NCBI GenBank assembly: GCA_913031395.1
Contig: CAJWDT010000009.1
Span: 1-36,395 of the forward strand
From: an uncultured Gammaproteobacteria bacterium
Lineage (GTDB): Bacteria; Pseudomonadota; Gammaproteobacteria; Magnimaribacterales; Magnimaribacteraceae
Reading direction: 5' to 3'
DNA length: 36,395 nucleotides
A program made the position numbers and the translations under genes. The notes under the pieces were generated by a model. It saw only the letters and a list, made by a program, of their open reading frames with translations, was not told where the DNA came from and searched no databases. Shown here piece by piece: positions 13,549 through 30,259 of the stretch. Every line of letters begins with the position of its first letter. Positions within the stretch are counted from its first letter, which is position 1.

Positions 13549-15555
13549 ATGTTAGAAAGTTATCTTGCAATACCGCCACTATTAGGCGTATTGGGTTTAT
13601 TAGTTGCTTTAGGTATTTACATAGTTGTCACAAGATTTCCAGAAGGCGATGAAAAAGTAAAAAAAATAGGTGATCAAATTCATCTAGGTGCAATGACCTT
13701 TATGAAAACTGAGTATACATATCTCAGTATTTTCGCTCTTGTAGTCATAGTTTTAGTTTGGTTTTCTCTTGGCGAAGCAACAGCAATCGCGGTACTGGCC
13801 GGTGCACTGTCCTCCTCTATAGCAGGTTGGATAGGAATGTATTCAGCAACAAAAGCCAATGTTAGAACTGCAACTGCAGCACAACAATCAGGTGCAGAAT
13901 CAGCATTATCTGTTGCATTTTATGGCGGATCTATAATGGGTCTTTGTGTTGCATCTCTAGGTTTGATTGGTTTAGGTAGTATGTTCTATATTCTCAGCGG
14001 AGACGCTCATTCTATTGAAGGCTTTGCAATGGGTGCTTCTATCGTTGCTCTTTTCTCAAGAGTAGGTGGAGGTATCTATACTAAAAGTGCAGATGTAGGA
14101 GCTGATTTAGTTGGTAAACTTGAAGCCGGGATACCTGAAGATGATCCCAGAAATCCTGGAGTAATAGCTGACAATGTTGGGGACAATGTTGGGGATATAG
14201 CCGGAATGGGTTCAGATATTTTTGAATCATATTGTGGATCAATGGTAGCTTGTATTGCGATTGCATCAACTTACCTTATTACATCTGAATTTTCTCAAGC
14301 ACAAAAAGATGGCATGATGTTTCTTCCGCTTGCCCTAGCTTCTATAGGCTTAATTGCTTCAATTTTAGGAATTATAATTGTTAGATTATTCTCCAAGTCT
14401 TCACCTGCAAATGCTATGAGATGGGGAACAATGGGTGCACCTTTGATTTTTGTTATCGCTGCTTATTTCTTAACAAATGCTTTGGTTGGAGCTAATGGTT
14501 TAGATGTATGGCTTGCCGTTGTATGCGGCTCTGTTGGTGGTATAGCTATAGGCTTAATTACTGAATATTACACAGGCTCAACTCCTGTAGTTAAAATTGC
14601 GGAATCTGGCCAAACTGGCTCAGCAACTGTAATGATTACAGGTCTCTCTGTGGGCATGCAATCAGTTGTGCTACCTGTTGCTTGTATTATTGTGATTATT
14701 TATTTATCAACTGAACTTACAGGCCTGTATGGAGTTGGTATAGCAGCAGTTGGGATGTTATCAACTGTAGGTATTACCATGGCAATTGATGCTTATGGCC
14801 CTGTAGCTGACAATGCTGGCGGTATAGCAGAAATGGCAGGTATGCCCCCTGAAACTAGAGTTATTACTGATGAGCTTGATGAACAAGGCAATACTACTGC
14901 AGCTATAGGTAAAGGTTTTGCAATAGGAGCAGCTGCGTTGGCTGCACTTGCGATCATCTCAGCTTTTGTTTCTACTGTTTCCGCTAATAGGGTTGAGCCT
15001 TTAGAACTTCTTTTATCTGATCCGGTTGTTTTGATCGGAGTCTTTATTGGAGGAGCCATACCATTCCTAATAGCTTCAATAACTATGACAGCCGTTGGCG
15101 ATGCTGCTTTTGAAATGATTAATGAAATCAGAAGGCAGTTCAAAGAAATCCCTGGATTATTAGAAGGTACTGCTGAGCCAGACACTGAAAAATGTGTTGA
15201 TATCGCAACAGCTGCAGCACTTAAAAAAATGTTACTTCCTGGAATCATTGCTGTTTCTGCTCCCCCATTAGTGGGACTAGGGATAGGTGCTGAAGCCCTT
15301 GGAGGCATGCTAGCCGGAGGTCTTTTAGTCTGCGTGCTAATGGCACTCTTTATGGCAAATGCTGGTGGAGCTTGGGATAACGCTAAAAAATATATTGAGA
15401 AAGGTAACTTAGGTGGAAAGGGAACAGAAACTCATGCTGCCGCTGTAGTTGGAGATACTGTGGGAGATCCGTTCAAGGACACTTCAGGCCCTTCAATGAA
15501 TATCTTGATCAACGTAATGGCTATTGTTAGTTTAGTTATTGCACCACTTCTTTAG
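13549..15555 (+). CDS. hppA: HppA, membrane ion-pumping pyrophosphatase
   Basis: Couples pyrophosphate hydrolysis to H+ or Na+ pumping across the inner membrane. The 668-residue protein has about 16 hydrophobic helices, the substrate signature DVGADLVGK with downstream DNVGDNVGD (about 182-215), and the C-terminal [15 protein letters not shown] loop. At the K+-dependence site it reads [10 protein letters not shown] (447-456), with A451 and G454 where K+-independent enzymes have Lys and Thr, so it is probably K+-dependent. H+ versus Na+ use cannot be settled by eye. A strong GAGGAG lies five bases before the ATG. Its 3' end overlaps a convergent gene by 20 bases. Confidence 0.96.
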
Positions 15556-16023: not shown

Positions 16024-16746
16024 ATGGGGAAGCAGGATAATATCTATGAAGCCGGTAATTTAAGTGGTTTACCATTTACTTTCAATCAAGAAGTTGCAGA
16101 AGTTTTTGAGGATATGATTGATAGGTCTGTTCCAGGTTATAAGACGAGTTTGAATATCATTAGATATCTGAGCAAAAAATACTATCAAATTAATACAAAT
16201 TGTTACGATATTGGCTGTTCTCTTGGTGCATCAAGCGCTTCTATACTCGATGGTGCCAGCTCTCCCAAAGTCATAGCTATTGATAATTCTGAAGCAATGA
16301 TCGATGAATGCATGAGAAGGTTTAAATCCCAAATAGATTCAAAATTTATACAATTTAGGTCAGAAGATATCATGCAAAGTAAGCTTGAAAATGCTTCAGT
16401 TGTAGTCATTAATTATGTAATTCAGTTTTTGGATCTTGGACAAAGGGACGAACTTATTAAAAAGATTTACCACTCTTTAATTCCTGGAGGTATATTAATT
16501 TTATCTGAGAAAGTCCACTTTACTAATCGATTTGAAACAAATCGCATATACAAAACACATCATTCATTTAAGGCTTTGAATGGATATTCTGAGATGGAAA
16601 TTGCGGGAAAGAGAGACTCACTAGAAGGAGTCTTGATAACGGAAACGGAAAATGATCATCTCGAAAGAGCAATTAATTGTGGTTTTACTAGATCTGAAAA
16701 AATCCTTTCAAACCTTAACTTTAGAACATTTAAATTTATTAAATAA
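16024..16746 (+). CDS. cmoA: CmoA, carboxy-S-adenosylmethionine synthase
   Basis: Makes carboxy-SAM from SAM and prephenate for wobble-uridine modification. The 240-residue protein has FTFNQEVAEVFEDMIDRSVPGY near the N-terminus, the SAM-binding YDIGCSLGASS (about 61-71), AIDNSEAMI, and NGYSEMEIAGKRDSLEGV, all close to E. coli CmoA. It is followed one base later by cmoB, so the pathway pair is contiguous. Confidence 0.95.
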   Translation: MGKQDNIYEAGNLSGLPFTFNQEVAEVFEDMIDRSVPGYKTSLNIIRYLSKKYYQINTNCYDIGCSLGASSASILDGASSPKVIAIDNSEAMIDECMRRFKSQIDSKFIQFRSEDIMQSKLENASVVVINYVIQFLDLGQRDELIKKIYHSLIPGGILILSEKVHFTNRFETNRIYKTHHSFKALNGYSEMEIAGKRDSLEGVLITETENDHLERAINCGFTRSEKILSNLNFRTFKFIK

Positions 16747-16747
16747 A

Positions 16748-17671
16748 ATGTTTATTTCTAAAGAGATAGAAGAATTATCTATTGATTATTTATCTAAACC
16801 TTTTGGAGATAAGAAAGACAAAAGGGTAGAGCGATGGCTCGATCTATTAAATCAACTAAATACTCAAGCAGAGATAGTAAATCTTAAAGACGAAGTGAGG
16901 GTTGATCTCTCCACAATTGATATAGAAGAAATTGAATCAATATTTCTTGAATTTCTTCCCTGGCGAAAGGGACCTTTTCGCATTAATGATTTATTAATTG
17001 ACAGCGAGTGGAACTCAGATTTGAAGTGGAAACGATTACAAGCCTTGAAAGTTAATTTAAAAAATAAATCTATTCTTGATGTAGGGTCAGGAAATGGCTA
17101 TTACGCTTTTAGAATGTTAGGAATGGGAGCAAAGCAAGTTCTTTGCTTAGAACCAAATCTTGTGCATGTTTCTCAATTCACCGCGATAAACAAGCTCGTA
17201 GACTCAAAAAAAGTAAGAATGATTCCTGAGAGGCTGGAGTCTTCAGGCATAAAGCAAACTGAATTCGATTGTGTTTTTAGTATGGGTCTTTTGTATCATC
17301 AGAGAAACCCTCAAGAACATTTACAGAACCTAAAAGATTTCCTTAAGTCAGATGGCCAGATGATTATTGAGACAATTATCGCACCTGATTCTTATGGAAT
17401 AGCACTAGAGCCTGTCGATAGATACGCCTCTATGCCAAATGTTCATTTTGTTCATACTGATTTGGGTTGTAAATCAATGTTCGAAGATCTGAAATTAGAC
17501 CTAGTTTCAGAGTCTGACACTGTTCCGACAAGCCATCTTGAACAAAGGAAAACTAAGTGGATGCCATTTAAGTCATTTGAGTCTGCTCTTGATCAAGACA
17601 ACCAATCTTTAACAATAGAAGGTTATCCAGCACCTTCTAGAAAATTTTATCTACTAGAGCCTAAATTCTAA
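16748..17671 (+). CDS. cmoB: CmoB, tRNA U34 carboxymethyltransferase
   Basis: Transfers the carboxymethyl group of carboxy-SAM to 5-hydroxyuridine-34, giving cmo5U in tRNAs. The 307-residue protein has the Rossmann motif ILDVGSGNGYYAFRMLG, FSMGLLYHQRNPQEHL, DRYASMPNVHF and the C-terminal IEGYPAPSRK, all characteristic. The open frame extends upstream into cmoA, but homology begins at the ATG at 16748, one base past the cmoA stop. Its stop overlaps that of the convergent recG by four bases. Confidence 0.95.
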   Translation: MFISKEIEELSIDYLSKPFGDKKDKRVERWLDLLNQLNTQAEIVNLKDEVRVDLSTIDIEEIESIFLEFLPWRKGPFRINDLLIDSEWNSDLKWKRLQALKVNLKNKSILDVGSGNGYYAFRMLGMGAKQVLCLEPNLVHVSQFTAINKLVDSKKVRMIPERLESSGIKQTEFDCVFSMGLLYHQRNPQEHLQNLKDFLKSDGQMIIETIIAPDSYGIALEPVDRYASMPNVHFVHTDLGCKSMFEDLKLDLVSESDTVPTSHLEQRKTKWMPFKSFESALDQDNQSLTIEGYPAPSRKFYLLEPKF

Positions 17672-25423: not shown

Positions 25424-26434
25424 ATGAAAGTTCTAGGAATTGAAACCTCTTGTGATGAAACAGGTGTAGCTATCTTTGATACGGATAAGAACACGATTGT
25501 TTCAGAGCAATTATATAGTCAGGCAGCAAAACATGCTTTGTATGGAGGTGTCGTGCCTGAATTGGCTTCAAGAGATCATCTCAAGAAACTCATTCCCCTA
25601 ATAGAGTTAACAGTTCAAGAATCTGGCTACACTCTTAATGAAATAGATGGCATAGCTTATACAGCTGGTCCAGGACTCAGAGGACCTCTTTTAATTGGAG
25701 CTTCTACTGCAAAAGCTATTGCTCTCAGTCTAGGAAAACCCTCCGTAGGAGTGCATCACATGGAAGCACATCTTCTGATTAATCTTTTAGAAGATCCCGC
25801 TCCATCTTTTCCTTTCTTAACTTTACTGATTTCAGGAGGTCATTGTCTTCTCATCAACTCTCAATCTCTTGGTAGTTATCAAATAATCGGACAGACACTA
25901 GATGATGCAGTGGGGGAGGCATTTGATAAAGTTGCTAAGATCTTAGAGCTCGGTTACCCAGGAGGACCAAAAATTGAGGTTTTAGCAAAAGAAGGAGATT
26001 CATCTGCATTTAATTTTCCCAGACCAATGACAAATAAATCCAATCTAGATTTCAGCTTCAGTGGATTAAAGACAGCAGTTTATTATGAGTATAAAAAGTA
26101 TAAGAAAATTTCTAATAATCAAAAAGCTGACATAGCTGCTTCTTTTCAAGCTGCTGTTGCGGATACTTTATTGTTGAAAACCAGAAGCGCGCTTATAGAA
26201 ACTGATCTGAATGAATTGGTGATTGGAGGAGGTGTTGCCTCTAATAAATTTATTAGAGAAAGGCTAGTGACAGGCTTAAAAGAAACTAAAATTTTTTTCC
26301 CGCCAATTGAGAGATGCACTGATAATGGAGCAATGATTGCTTATGCAGGGAGTTTTTATCTAAAAGAGACGGAGCAAAATATGAGCCTTGATATTAAACC
26401 AAGATGGCCTTTATCAGAACTTAACCATGGATAA
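25424..26434 (+). CDS. tsaD: TsaD, tRNA N6-threonylcarbamoyladenosine transferase
   Basis: Transfers threonylcarbamoyl to A37 of ANN-decoding tRNAs together with TsaB and TsaE. The 336-residue protein begins GIETSCDETGVA, has the metal ligand motif HMEAH (about 111-115), TLLISGGHC (about 133-141), DDAVGEAFDK, FSGLKTA and GGGVASN. Length is normal. It overlaps folB by eight bases and forms a plus-strand unit tsaD-folB-folK. Confidence 0.96.
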   Translation: MKVLGIETSCDETGVAIFDTDKNTIVSEQLYSQAAKHALYGGVVPELASRDHLKKLIPLIELTVQESGYTLNEIDGIAYTAGPGLRGPLLIGASTAKAIALSLGKPSVGVHHMEAHLLINLLEDPAPSFPFLTLLISGGHCLLINSQSLGSYQIIGQTLDDAVGEAFDKVAKILELGYPGGPKIEVLAKEGDSSAFNFPRPMTNKSNLDFSFSGLKTAVYYEYKKYKKISNNQKADIAASFQAAVADTLLLKTRSALIETDLNELVIGGGVASNKFIRERLVTGLKETKIFFPPIERCTDNGAMIAYAGSFYLKETEQNMSLDIKPRWPLSELNHG

Positions 26435-26774
26435 AGTATTTATCAATAATTTAGCTGTTGAAGCAATCATAGGTATTTTCCAGTGGGAAAGAGAGGTTAG
26501 ACAGCTTATATCAATAGATATTGAAATGGATTTTGATAATAAACAGGCTGCTAAGTCTGACAATATAGAAGATGCACTCAATTATAAACTTGTAGGTAAG
26601 AGAATTACTGGCTACGTAAAAAATTCAAAATTTAAATTAGTTGAAGCTCTAGCAGAAAATATATCTAAGATAATACTAAAGGAATTTCCAGTGTCTAAGG
26701 TGAAAGTAACTTTATGCAAACCAGGTGCAATGAGGGGCTCAGATTCTGTAGGAATCTCGATTGTTAGACCTTGA
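26427..26774 (+). CDS. folB: FolB, dihydroneopterin aldolase
   Basis: Cleaves 7,8-dihydroneopterin in folate synthesis. The 115-residue protein has VEAIIGIFQWERE near the N-terminus with the conserved Glu, LVEALAENIS in the middle and the Lys-bearing LCKPGAMRGSDSVG loop near the C-terminus. The frame is open further upstream inside tsaD, but family homology starts at the ATG at 26427. It overlaps folK by four bases. Confidence 0.95.
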   Translation: MDKVFINNLAVEAIIGIFQWEREVRQLISIDIEMDFDNKQAAKSDNIEDALNYKLVGKRITGYVKNSKFKLVEALAENISKIILKEFPVSKVKVTLCKPGAMRGSDSVGISIVRP

Positions 26775-27217
26775 AGCAATTAGTCTTTATCAGTATCGGA
26801 AGTAATCTAGATGCTGAAAAAAATATGAATCTTGCCAAATATCATCTCGACCTCATTTTTGATGTTACTTATTCAGGTATATACAAAACACCAGCTGAAG
26901 GTTTTGTCGGTGGAGATTTTCTAAATAGAGTTTGTAAATTTGAAACTGAAGTTGATCCATATGAGATCCGCTTAATGCTAAAGAAAATCGAATATGATAT
27001 GGGTAGAACAAATGACCAGAAGGGCATGTCTAGTAGAGTAATAGATCTAGATCTTATCTTATATGGAGACTTAAAAATCAATGATCATGAGTTAGAAATC
27101 CCAAGTTCTGATATTGAAAATTATAAATTTGTTCTAGAACCTTTAGCTGAAATTGCACCTACCTCTATTCATCCAATCTTAAAAAAGTCTTATCTAGAAT
27201 TGCTAAATTTTTTATAA
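26771..27217 (+). CDS. folK: FolK, HPPK (hydroxymethyldihydropterin pyrophosphokinase)
   Basis: Transfers pyrophosphate from ATP to 6-hydroxymethyldihydropterin, the step after FolB. The 148-residue protein has ISIGSNLDAEKN (about 7-18), GIYKTPAEGF, FLNRVCKFET, and the signature SSRVIDLDLILYG. The start codon is TTG, overlapping the folB stop (TTGA). HPPK and FolB are adjacent separate proteins rather than a fusion. Confidence 0.94.
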   Translation: MKQLVFISIGSNLDAEKNMNLAKYHLDLIFDVTYSGIYKTPAEGFVGGDFLNRVCKFETEVDPYEIRLMLKKIEYDMGRTNDQKGMSSRVIDLDLILYGDLKINDHELEIPSSDIENYKFVLEPLAEIAPTSIHPILKKSYLELLNFL

Positions 27218-27266
27218 ACTTCTTTAATTTTTTTATTATTATCCAGAAGGGCATTATCCAATCTCC

Positions 27267-27296
27267 TTGAAAGGTATCTTGAAATACTTCTATATG
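27267..27296 (+). promoter_or_regulatory. possible promoter for the exported protein at 27336
   Basis: TTGAAA at 27267-27272 and TATATG at 27291-27296 are separated by 18 bases, in the 118-base gap after folK. The matches to sigma-70 are five and four of six. The leader to the ATG would be about 33 bases, with AAAGGA at 27325-27330. Confidence 0.42.
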
Positions 27297-27335
27297 TTGT
27301 TGTACGATCAATCTGTTAATCAACAAAGGAATACT

Positions 27336-28052
27336 ATGAAAAAATTAATTTTAATAATGCTTTCTACATTGGCTATATCTGTTTTTGCAGATGATCATGC
27401 GAGCGCAACAATGTCTACAGACGGAGCTTTTACTACTTTGCAGGTAGCATCTTCTGATATTGAAAAATATAGACAAACACTTATTGATAATCCTACAGCC
27501 TTTAAGGCTACAGGTGCTACAGCTGCGGGTATATGTGTTACCAACAGTGGCCATGATTATTTAGGACAAATGATGGTTTGGAGCGCATTCCCAAATGTAG
27601 CTGCCGCTTTATCAGGAAGTACAATGTATGACCCACAAAAAGCCCCTAGAAGTTTCGAGAGACTTAGGGAAGTTAAGTATGGTGTCACTTGGAAACCTAT
27701 CACACCATTTAGACTTGAACCAGGTTTTGAAAGAGTCCAAAGAATAAAAGTATCTAATGAAAATATGCAAAATTTTACAGCTGCAATTGATAGTCTAGAA
27801 AAAGCTATTCAAGATGCAGGTCATCCTAATTTTTACAATGGAGCATTTGTATTAATCGGTGGAGGTGATCGTGATGTAGGGACTGTGATAGTTCGTTCTA
27901 TAGTTCGAGATGCCAATGCTATGGGAATATTGTTTGATGATTTTTTTGCAGGCAATGCTTCTTGGGCAGATGAGTACCAAGCAGTTCTTTCTCTGGGAGA
28001 GGTTGTGTCGGATAACATGGAGATTTGTGAACAGCTTTATTTTGGAAGCTAA
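27336..28052 (+). CDS. exported protein of unrecognised family
   Basis: A 238-residue protein whose family I do not recognise. It starts MKKLILIMLSTLAISVFA followed by DDHASA, a typical signal peptide with cleavage near residue 18, so it is probably periplasmic. The frame is open 23 codons further upstream, but AAAGGA five bases before the ATG at 27336 and the signal peptide fix the start. The mature part looks like two related halves: each has a strand with an alternating hydrophobic pattern, a helix (DIEKYRQTLIDN and ENMQNFTAAIDSLEKAI), a glycine-rich turn, a strand (GQMMVWSAF and GTVIVRSIV) and an Ala-rich helix, like the dimeric alpha/beta-barrel fold. That similarity is inference. Two cysteines are visible (CVTN and MEICEQ). 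It has its own promoter-like boxes and a strong terminator. Confidence 0.8.
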   Translation: MKKLILIMLSTLAISVFADDHASATMSTDGAFTTLQVASSDIEKYRQTLIDNPTAFKATGATAAGICVTNSGHDYLGQMMVWSAFPNVAAALSGSTMYDPQKAPRSFERLREVKYGVTWKPITPFRLEPGFERVQRIKVSNENMQNFTAAIDSLEKAIQDAGHPNFYNGAFVLIGGGDRDVGTVIVRSIVRDANAMGILFDDFFAGNASWADEYQAVLSLGEVVSDNMEICEQLYFGS

Positions 28053-28064
28053 ATCTTAAATCTA

Positions 28065-28107
28065 AGTCTGGTTGTCTAAAACGATAGCCAGACTTTCCTC
28101 TTTTTTC
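28065..28107 (+). terminator. rho-independent terminator after the exported protein gene
   Basis: A 12-bp stem (28065-28076 with 28083-28094, including two G-T pairs) closes a six-base loop and is followed by TTCCTCTTTTTT. It lies 12 bases after the stop at 28052. On the minus strand the hairpin also follows the end of the convergent SnoaL-like gene, with a weaker T-rich tail, so it may act both ways. It is the clearest terminator in the window. Confidence 0.85.
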
Positions 28108-28140
28108 TTATTGAAATTAAGCAGTTCTGTTGCAAAAAGC

Positions 28141-28599
28141 TTATATCTGAGAGAAATGGGTATGGGTTATTCCCCATTTACCTTTTTCTTTAACCAGAAC
28201 TATTGTTGCATTGTTAAAAGCAGGAGGAGAAATTTCACCCTCTCCTGCTATAAAGTCAAAACGTCTAATAAAATGAGCCACTGCTACATTTCCAAATACT
28301 CTTACTTCTGGAGAAATAATTGTCTGCATAATTTTCCAATTCGGATCTCTTTTCAAAATCGCAGCTCTTCTTTCCTTTTGAATTGATAGGTTATCTTTCT
28401 GGTCAGGCCATTTTTCTGCTCCAGCGATCATCACTCTGTCATCTCTTATAAGAGCAGCTTGAGCATCTAAATCTCCCTCTAAAGAAGCCCATTCTTTTAT
28501 AAATCTAATGACTTCATCTTCTTCGGAGCTATAAACTGGAGTAGACGCGCTAAAAATAAGTACGGAAAGTATTAATAATTTTGTAAGCCTTTTGTTCAT
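28141..28599 (-). CDS. exported SnoaL/NTF2-like (DUF4440-type) protein
   Basis: A 152-residue protein with a signal peptide (MNKRLTKLLILSVLIFSAS, cleavage near residue 24, before SSEEDE). The mature part fits the NTF2-like cone fold of SnoaL/DUF4440 proteins: an initial helix (EVIRFIKEWASLEGDLDAQ), then AALIRDD, VRVFGNVAVAHFIRRF and a final VKEKGKWGITHTHFS strand pair. Substrate and role are unknown. AGGAG precedes the ATG by seven bases. It faces the exported protein at 27336 tail-to-tail. Confidence 0.8.
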   Translation of the reverse strand: MNKRLTKLLILSVLIFSASTPVYSSEEDEVIRFIKEWASLEGDLDAQAALIRDDRVMIAGAEKWPDQKDNLSIQKERRAAILKRDPNWKIMQTIISPEVRVFGNVAVAHFIRRFDFIAGEGEISPPAFNNATIVLVKEKGKWGITHTHFSQI

Positions 28600-28678
28600 A
28601 TTCTTTCTCCTTTAATTAATAGTCTTATGTTCTTTATACACTCTTTTGAAGAGATCTTTATTTATTTTATCTTGAGAT

Positions 28679-30259
28679 CTAAATCTTTTCACCAAGTGCT
28701 CTTGCTCGATCAGAAACTGATTCTTCATCAGCTTTAAGATTTTTCACGGCTAAGAATAGAGTTATTGTAGGAATTATTAAAATAAAAAGTATCAGTGCCA
28801 TAGAGGTTTGCATGGCATCGCCAGGAGCATAGCCTTGATATTCAAACATATCACTTATTCGACCAAGCGTATAAGGGCCAAGTGCTAGTCCAATCATACT
28901 TAGGGTGAGTATAAAGAAGGCACCTGCCATTGCCCTCATTCTTGGAAGAACTAGATTTGTGACTGTTGTAGCAGCGCAACCGACATAAACAGAGCTTCCG
29001 ATATGATATATAAAATTAAATACCAATGATGCATTTCTACTTTCTGAGTAGATCATCCCTAGACAGCCTAATGTAGTAATTAAAACGCCACCTACAAATA
29101 TGACGTAGAGTCTTCCGCCTGAATACTTATCCCTTAATTTATCTCCAAAATATCCACCGCCTATTACTCCAATAAAAGACCCAATTGCAGTAATTAAACC
29201 AATCATTGTGCCTATTTCAAGTGCAGTCATGCCATGATAATTAATATAGAAAGAAGGTGTAAACGCTGAATAGGCATAACCTACAAATGGTATACATGGA
29301 AAGGATATGAACGAGTAGATTATCGCCTTACTTCTAAACATTAAAGTAAATGCAACAATATCTCTCTTACTTAAACTTTGTATCCAAGTGCAGACTAAAT
29401 AAGTCCCTATGCCCCAAGCGACCCATTGCAGGAAATCATCAGTTAGTTTGTATAAAGAAAAACATAAAAGAAAAATTGTCGAGGCTATCAAAAAATTTAT
29501 GCCTAGGGACTTCAAAGTGTCTTTGTCTCCTAAAAGAGATAAAGGTGTAAGGCCTATAAACTCTTTAAAGGTATCCTTAAATGGCTCTTTACTAGGTTCT
29601 GTAATAATGCCTTCACTCATTCCTCTTATGGGTTCCTTAATGAAAGTAAAGGTAATCAATGAAAGTAAAATTCCTGGAAGCCCAACTCCCATAAAGGCAG
29701 CTTGCCAACCTTTAAGTCCAAAAGGTGCTTGGGTAGGGTCGGGGTAAGCAGAATTCCAAGTATCTAAAATCGCTCCACCTAAAAACAACCCAATGCCTGC
29801 TCCAAGATAAAGCCCGCTAGAATATATTGATAATACTGTTGCTCTGACTCTAGGAGAAAAGTAGTCAGAAAGAAGAGAATATGCAGAGGGTGTTGCGGTA
29901 GACTCACCGATACCTACACCAAATCTATAAATAGAAAGACTTAAAAAAGATTTTGCAGTACCTGACATAAAAGTCATCAAACTCCAAAAAGCTAATCCTA
30001 TACTTATGAGGTTTTTTCTATTCCATGAGTCTGCTAATTTCCCCATGGGTATACCAACTACTGAATAAAAGACACCAAAAGCTGTTCCAAATAAGAAGCC
30101 AATATCGCTATTGGAAATCCCAAGATCTGCCTTTATATCCTCGGCAAGGATGGATAGAATTTGTCTATCTACAAAGTTAAATATATAAACTAATACAAGA
30201 AGACTTAAGGCAACTTTAGCGTGATAGCCACCTACCTCAGAATTTTTCTCTTCTGACAA
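28679..30259 (-). CDS. Spinster-like MFS transporter
   Basis: A 526-residue inner-membrane transporter of the major facilitator superfamily. The first helix has VYIFNFVDRQILSIL and the helix 2-3 loop GIPMGKLADSWNRKN, followed by GVGIGESTATPSAYSLLSDYF, features of the Spinster-like group. About 12 helices are present plus two extra hydrophobic spans in the long central region (about 235-300). The start is TTG at 30259, with AAGGGG seven bases before. It follows the two MaoC genes after 26 bases, which suggests import or export of a lipid-like or acid substrate handled by them; the substrate is unknown. Confidence 0.88.
   Translation of the reverse strand: MSEEKNSEVGGYHAKVALSLLVLVYIFNFVDRQILSILAEDIKADLGISNSDIGFLFGTAFGVFYSVVGIPMGKLADSWNRKNLISIGLAFWSLMTFMSGTAKSFLSLSIYRFGVGIGESTATPSAYSLLSDYFSPRVRATVLSIYSSGLYLGAGIGLFLGGAILDTWNSAYPDPTQAPFGLKGWQAAFMGVGLPGILLSLITFTFIKEPIRGMSEGIITEPSKEPFKDTFKEFIGLTPLSLLGDKDTLKSLGINFLIASTIFLLCFSLYKLTDDFLQWVAWGIGTYLVCTWIQSLSKRDIVAFTLMFRSKAIIYSFISFPCIPFVGYAYSAFTPSFYINYHGMTALEIGTMIGLITAIGSFIGVIGGGYFGDKLRDKYSGGRLYVIFVGGVLITTLGCLGMIYSESRNASLVFNFIYHIGSSVYVGCAATTVTNLVLPRMRAMAGAFFILTLSMIGLALGPYTLGRISDMFEYQGYAPGDAMQTSMALILFILIIPTITLFLAVKNLKADEESVSDRARALGEKI

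Follow-up and report, generated by a model that had tools for sequence, protein, structure and literature searches.

A predicted exported tandem dimeric alpha/beta-barrel protein from an order that appears to be SAR86

Described relatives of the fold and the locus

In a dimeric alpha/beta (DABB) barrel, the two halves meet where the last strand of one runs alongside strand 2 of the other. The fold occurs in sulfur oxygenase reductase, chlorite dismutase/HemQ and HmoB, and members of the sulfur oxygenase reductase, chlorite dismutase/HemQ/DyP and HmoB/IsdG families hold haem or iron through conserved histidine ligands. To our knowledge, the best-known ABM-type enzymes of this kind use no metal. 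Solved two-domain ABM-like proteins include 5F9P, 3F44, 3MCS and PenE (9KDP), and a further solved structure, 2PGC, comes from an uncharacterised marine-metagenome protein, jcvi_pep_1096685590403.

Here we describe a gene (27336..28052, + strand) for a 238-residue, putatively exported protein with two tandem DABB halves. It lies in a 36,395-nucleotide stretch of DNA (the window), which is contig 9 of a 1.08 Mb genome that is 80.8% complete and holds a single copy of the gene. The gene is an open frame with homologues at 11 named loci and a dN/dS of ~0.05. A longer frame is possible from an upstream TTG at 27267; we took the ATG at 27336 because this start is conserved and has a ribosome site ahead of it. 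Purifying selection is strong, with a dN/dS of 0.054 and 0.056 against two orthologues of 89% identity and of 0.038 for the mature part alone against the first of these, although with a dS of ~1.1 in these comparisons the ratios are approximate.

The protein resembles each of the described systems in structure and departs from each in sequence. Solved 2PGC is its best fold match over both halves and shares a marine origin, but the two are only 10–15% identical, and neither the protein nor the profiles A2, A3 and A4 match 2PGC directly by sequence. The two-domain ABM-like proteins also match structurally over both halves, with Z of 13–15, yet identity is 4–11% with no sequence match, and the Pfam ABM family is absent from the 15 families matched at E ≤1 by any of 28 family rows. 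The haem and iron proteins share the DABB fold, whereas their conserved histidines lack a counterpart in the family studied here, a comparison that presumes the ligand to be histidine.

Searches of Pfam, NCBIfam, PHROGs and PDB sequences with the protein gave no significant match, and family profiles and rows likewise gave none in Pfam, NCBIfam or PDB, only scattered weak matches. The weak Pfam matches from 28 rows (FIST 0.0079, DUF1330 0.018, NIPSNAP 0.029 and others) and NCBIfam matches from 54 rows (TIGR01244 0.004 and others) were treated as chance because each came from one or two rows only; DUF1330 and NIPSNAP are DABB-type families, which fits the predicted fold. The top PDB sequence matches (E 0.05, 0.041 and 0.025) were dismissed as unrelated in kind. 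Thus, the initial annotation's description of a protein of unknown family, open to refutation by a clear match to a characterised one, holds for the libraries searched: the fold is known, but the family is absent from them. In the portions of the papers that it covered, a literature search found no description of the family (PMC11582366, PMC8371827), an absence that is not proof.

Fold, internal duplication and conserved residues

We modelled the protein with AlphaFold2 from 12 sequences, obtaining a pLDDT of 73 and pTM of 0.69 for the whole chain and a pLDDT of 80 and pTM of 0.77 for the mature chain alone. Confidence is moderate, the other 11 input sequences sharing 50–93% identity with the query over the mature chain. 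Both models show the order strand-helix-strand-strand-helix-strand twice, with some helices split in two. The N-terminal half spans residues 28–124 (27417..27707, + strand) and the C-terminal half residues 125–238 (27708..28049, + strand), each a beta-alpha-beta-beta-alpha-beta unit delimited by the model and by its profile match to the other.

The top solved match in all four structure comparisons was 2PGC, found by Foldseek at E 1e-10 with TM 0.74/0.76 and by VIA at Z 16.9, with an rmsd of 2.9 over 193 aligned residues and 11% identity. Foldseek then listed the putative monooxygenases 3F44 and 3MCS, the anthrone-oxidase-like 5F9P and coproheme decarboxylases. VIA followed with sulfur oxygenase reductase (Z ~15), 5F9P (14.8), CT0912 (14.7), 3F44 (14.7), PenE (14.0) and 3MCS (13.1), and lower down with HmoB (~11), coproheme decarboxylases (~10) and chlorite dismutases (~8.5). 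Ovorubin, a snail protein that carries a carotenoid, is found far down the structure lists (Z 7.8 and 8.1) and is a lead only. With two ferredoxin-like halves modelled in one chain, and with likeness to solved DABB proteins extending across both (Z 16.9 for 2PGC and 13–15 for several others), the protein would belong to the fused two-domain kind of DABB protein.

The duplication can also be seen in sequence profiles, evidence that is independent of structure prediction. We split the 54-row alignment A3 after residue 124 and aligned the halves as profiles with hhalign, which matched 78 columns in register with a score of 32.4, a probability of 77.7% and E 1.9e-5 for the single comparison. Among 100 controls, comprising 99 column scrambles and one reversal, the top score was 19.8. 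Rotated-profile controls scored up to 32.4, but were discounted as an invalid null because the aligned stretch survives intact in many rotations. By this profile comparison we judge the two halves homologous. The two similar halves and the duplicated dimeric alpha/beta barrel proposed earlier are therefore borne out by the profile match, the repeated order of elements in the model and the two-domain DABB neighbours; the predicted fold is repeated rather than single.

We examined residue conservation in 60 family sequences drawn from 52 loci, that of the window among them. Sequences were selected by profile at E 1e-5, and merging those ≥90% identical leaves 51. Seven residues are invariant in 60/60: Y45, G65, C67, R111, G177, G197 and C231. 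No catalytic set was recognised among these invariant residues.

Cys67 (codon 27534..27536, + strand) falls on strand 2 of the N half, modelled at residues 63–69, and Cys231 (codon 28026..28028, + strand) on strand 4, the last of the C half, modelled at residues 222–236. Past residue 22, every one of the 54 A3 rows contains two cysteines and no more. Because both residues are invariant and sit on strands that are adjacent in a closed DABB barrel, a Cys67–Cys231 disulfide that staples the barrel is likely, the pairing being predicted from strand topology and invariance. Histidine is not conserved at any position, occurring in at most 26 of the 60 sequences in any one column.

Gene signals, distribution and sister families

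The first 18 residues (27336..27389, + strand) read as a Sec signal peptide, MKKLILIMLSTLAISVFA followed by DD, with predicted cleavage between VFA and DD. In a crude count of features, 48 of the 54 family rows combine a Lys or Arg within the first eight residues with an apolar stretch of ten or more, in keeping with the signal peptide noted in the initial annotation.

The strong ribosome site, promoter-like boxes and best terminator of the window that had been assigned to this gene fared differently. The ribosome-binding site AAGGA (27326..27330, + strand), with a spacing of 5 to the ATG, was graded good, and most of the closest relatives carry a comparable sequence; among 41 window ORFs taken for genes, ten have a match of at least four bases, and this gene has five. 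Elsewhere in the window, a 668-residue membrane pyrophosphatase-like protein (13549-15555, + strand; identified by eye) has the five-base match AGGAG, a length that ties for second place across the 41 ORFs tested.

The candidate promoter TTGAAA-18-TACGAT (27279..27308, + strand) matches the consensus at 9 of 12 positions. The boxes exist and are partly conserved: of the five nearest relatives, four have an aligned CTTGAAT-like stretch, and two keep TACGAT exactly while the others differ from it at one or two positions. Taken alone, however, they do not rise above chance, as promoter-like matches are no commoner in the window than in shuffles (12 vs 14.3, 54 vs 59.8 and 40 vs 59.9), and the case for a promoter here is weak.

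An intrinsic-terminator-like hairpin lies 3' of the gene (28064..28095, + strand), with a 13-pair stem and −19 kcal/mol. Its stem is the longest among the window matches listed, the runner-up having 9 pairs, and its z is −6.7, with 0 of 200 shuffles doing as well; its description as the window's best terminator stands. Terminator-like matches are at chance over the whole window (12 vs 12.0 and 10 vs 10.8 expected) and above chance in 26000-29500 (6 vs 1.7 expected). By eye, a hairpin of other sequence follows the stop directly in L001, L003, L004 and L005, with a T-run that is not kept in all of them; the L002 alignment stopped at the gene end. Hairpins at the same place but of differing sequence in four relatives argue for terminator function, and we find the terminator convincing.

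Tail to tail with the gene, at 28141-28599 (− strand), is a SnoaL-like protein (Pfam SnoaL_3, 28.2 vs 22 bits) with a signal-peptide-like start; a homologue occupies the same place in L004 and is not among the ORFs listed for L001, L002, L003 and L005. Further off, at 16024-17671 (+ strand), two methyltransferase-like ORFs, judged by eye to be CmoA- and CmoB-like, share 95 bases read in different frames, and the true start of the second may lie further downstream.

Nine of the 11 named homologous loci are titled SAR86 and two Gammaproteobacteria, and from these titles the order that carries the family would be SAR86, a group of abundant ocean bacteria that have barely been cultured. Within the order, a single-protein search was positive in 65 of 151 genomes and a 28-row profile search in 80 of 203. 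Beyond it, two genomes of a class-level sample of 369 match, both from the SAR86 order, and in a phylum-level sample of 398 the one genome to match at E 0.001 is that of the window itself, with the runner-up at 0.08. These searches were of samples with a loose first filter, such that absence is not proof, and at the thresholds used neither sample held sequence relatives outside the order. Within the samples searched, then, the family is found by sequence only in the SAR86 order. A mobile origin was rejected, as neither 50,697 phage records nor 72,556 plasmid records held a match and no PHROG was hit.

Among the 52 loci, with gene names assigned by eye, the window copy and L001–L005 follow folB-folK-like genes, and other lineages have different gene contexts; because context differs between lineages, no pathway is implied. 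Homologues at L006–L010, L083 and L084, from two different families of the order, lie near pheT-, ihfA- and MerR-like genes (by eye). The two settings suggest either a gene that moved or two old copies. In seven loci (L086, L088, L089, L093, L094, L097 and L121), two or three family members stand side by side.

Two further exported families with duplicated halves occur at these loci: A6, of ~245 residues, in 20 of the 52, and A5 in 12. The halves of each are homologous to one another (E 7.5e-13 for A6 and 9.9e-15 for A5). A6 matches the given family at E 4.7e-11 with signal peptides included and, with these removed, at a probability of 89.6%, E 1.9e-6 and a score of 47.0, where 60 scrambles reached at most 21.9; the latter alignment pairs the given N half with the A6 C half. 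At the level of sequence profiles, A6 is clearly related to the given family. The same could not be concluded for A5, whose full-length match (probability 94%, E 1.3e-7) fell to a probability of 7% without signal peptides (E 0.0051, score 25.6 vs a maximum of 18.5 in 60 scrambles). The given C half matches either A5 half in register at E ~1e-3, and by these comparisons the kinship of A5 is unproven.

Of 202 genomes of the order, 135 carry A6; a class-level sample of 175 genomes held a single positive, which also belongs to the order. The window's own genome (80.8% complete) has no A5 match, and its only match to A6, 31 positions long, lies at the given gene's own signal peptide. L109, L115 and L116 each hold four or five A5 proteins around one member of the given family. 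After residue 22, A5 has four cysteines in 24 of 24 rows, and A6 has two in 12 rows and none in 9; cysteine numbers are thus even throughout the given family, A5 and A6, as disulfides would give.

Through A6 there are also faint links to described families. A6 aligns weakly by sequence with 2PGC (E 0.029, positions 67–210 of the 236-position profile), covering parts of both halves. To see whether 2PGC might itself come from SAR86, a 144-residue piece of it was searched against 202 genomes of the order and gave no match, in a run without a positive control. DUF6854 (PF21614) matches 6 of 21 A6 rows at E ≤0.1, and one of nine rescanned A6 members passes the Pfam cut-off (30.9 vs 27 bits); in contrast, DUF6854 is listed for none of 28 rows of the given family, which we do not assign to it. 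One A6 row matches Pfam ABM at E 0.067.

Possible roles of the family

The DABB fold is shared by enzymes, haem proteins, carriers and proteins without an assigned role, and therefore does not by itself settle function. Taking the evidence together, we consider it fairly probable that the protein is a periplasmic, metal-free, disulfide-stapled fused DABB barrel that binds, and perhaps oxidises, a small hydrophobic molecule. The Sec signal would export it to the periplasm, where the two ferredoxin-like halves of one chain would form a single closed barrel, stapled by the predicted disulfide at the point where the last strand meets strand 2 of the other half. The cavity may then bind a small hydrophobic or aromatic molecule without metal, the protein acting either as a binding protein or as a cofactor-free oxygenase like the antibiotic-biosynthesis-monooxygenase-type enzymes. 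We hold this anatomy with high confidence; for the ligand-binding role we see an even chance, with carrier and enzyme weighing roughly equally in our analysis.

The reading that competes most with this one, though rather unlikely in our estimate, is that of a purely structural or protein-binding envelope protein, a ligand-free barrel whose paralogues are interaction partners. Tandem, diverging paralogues and the lack of an identified catalytic set would suit changing partners, but the strong purifying selection on the given copy and the invariant Y45 and R111 suggest a shared site. A haem- or iron-dependent periplasmic DABB protein, of the chlorite dismutase/HemQ/DyP, HmoB or sulfur oxygenase reductase kind, seems very unlikely to us. 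Such proteins do rank high in the structural lists, from sulfur oxygenase reductase down to the chlorite dismutases, but at identities of 5–12%, and those families use histidine ligands where the given family conserves no histidine. Hence, of the small hydrophobic or haem-like ligand first proposed, the hydrophobic part remains in our preferred reading and we disfavour a haem-like ligand bound through histidine. Finally, the absolute conservation of Cys67 and Cys231 could reflect a redox-active pair in periplasmic thiol chemistry instead of a structural staple. This we regard as highly improbable: the two cysteines are 164 residues apart with no CXXC motif, and A6 has its cysteines elsewhere or none while A5 has four, which looks like stapling that arose lineage by lineage.

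We conclude that this is a lineage-specific, conserved and locally multiplied exported family that is probably useful at the cell envelope. What is new is its restriction by sequence to SAR86 within the searches made, its invariant cysteine pair and the two further exported, duplicated families at related loci. Hypothetical annotation frequently covers upwards of 40% of genes in the genomes of one paper, by its own account (PMC8371827). With a fold, a probable staple and sister families, what were unnamed genes become a set for expression, ligand tests and metaproteome look-up. More speculatively, and with considerable doubt, SAR86 may have evolved its own periplasmic set of stapled double-barrel binding proteins or cofactor-free oxygenases (A3, A6 and perhaps A5), often encoded by neighbouring genes and capturing or oxidising hydrophobic compounds, for instance lipids, pigments or the products of their breakdown. 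If true, this would be a ligand-handling system, unseen by the annotation libraries searched, in a highly abundant group of ocean bacteria.
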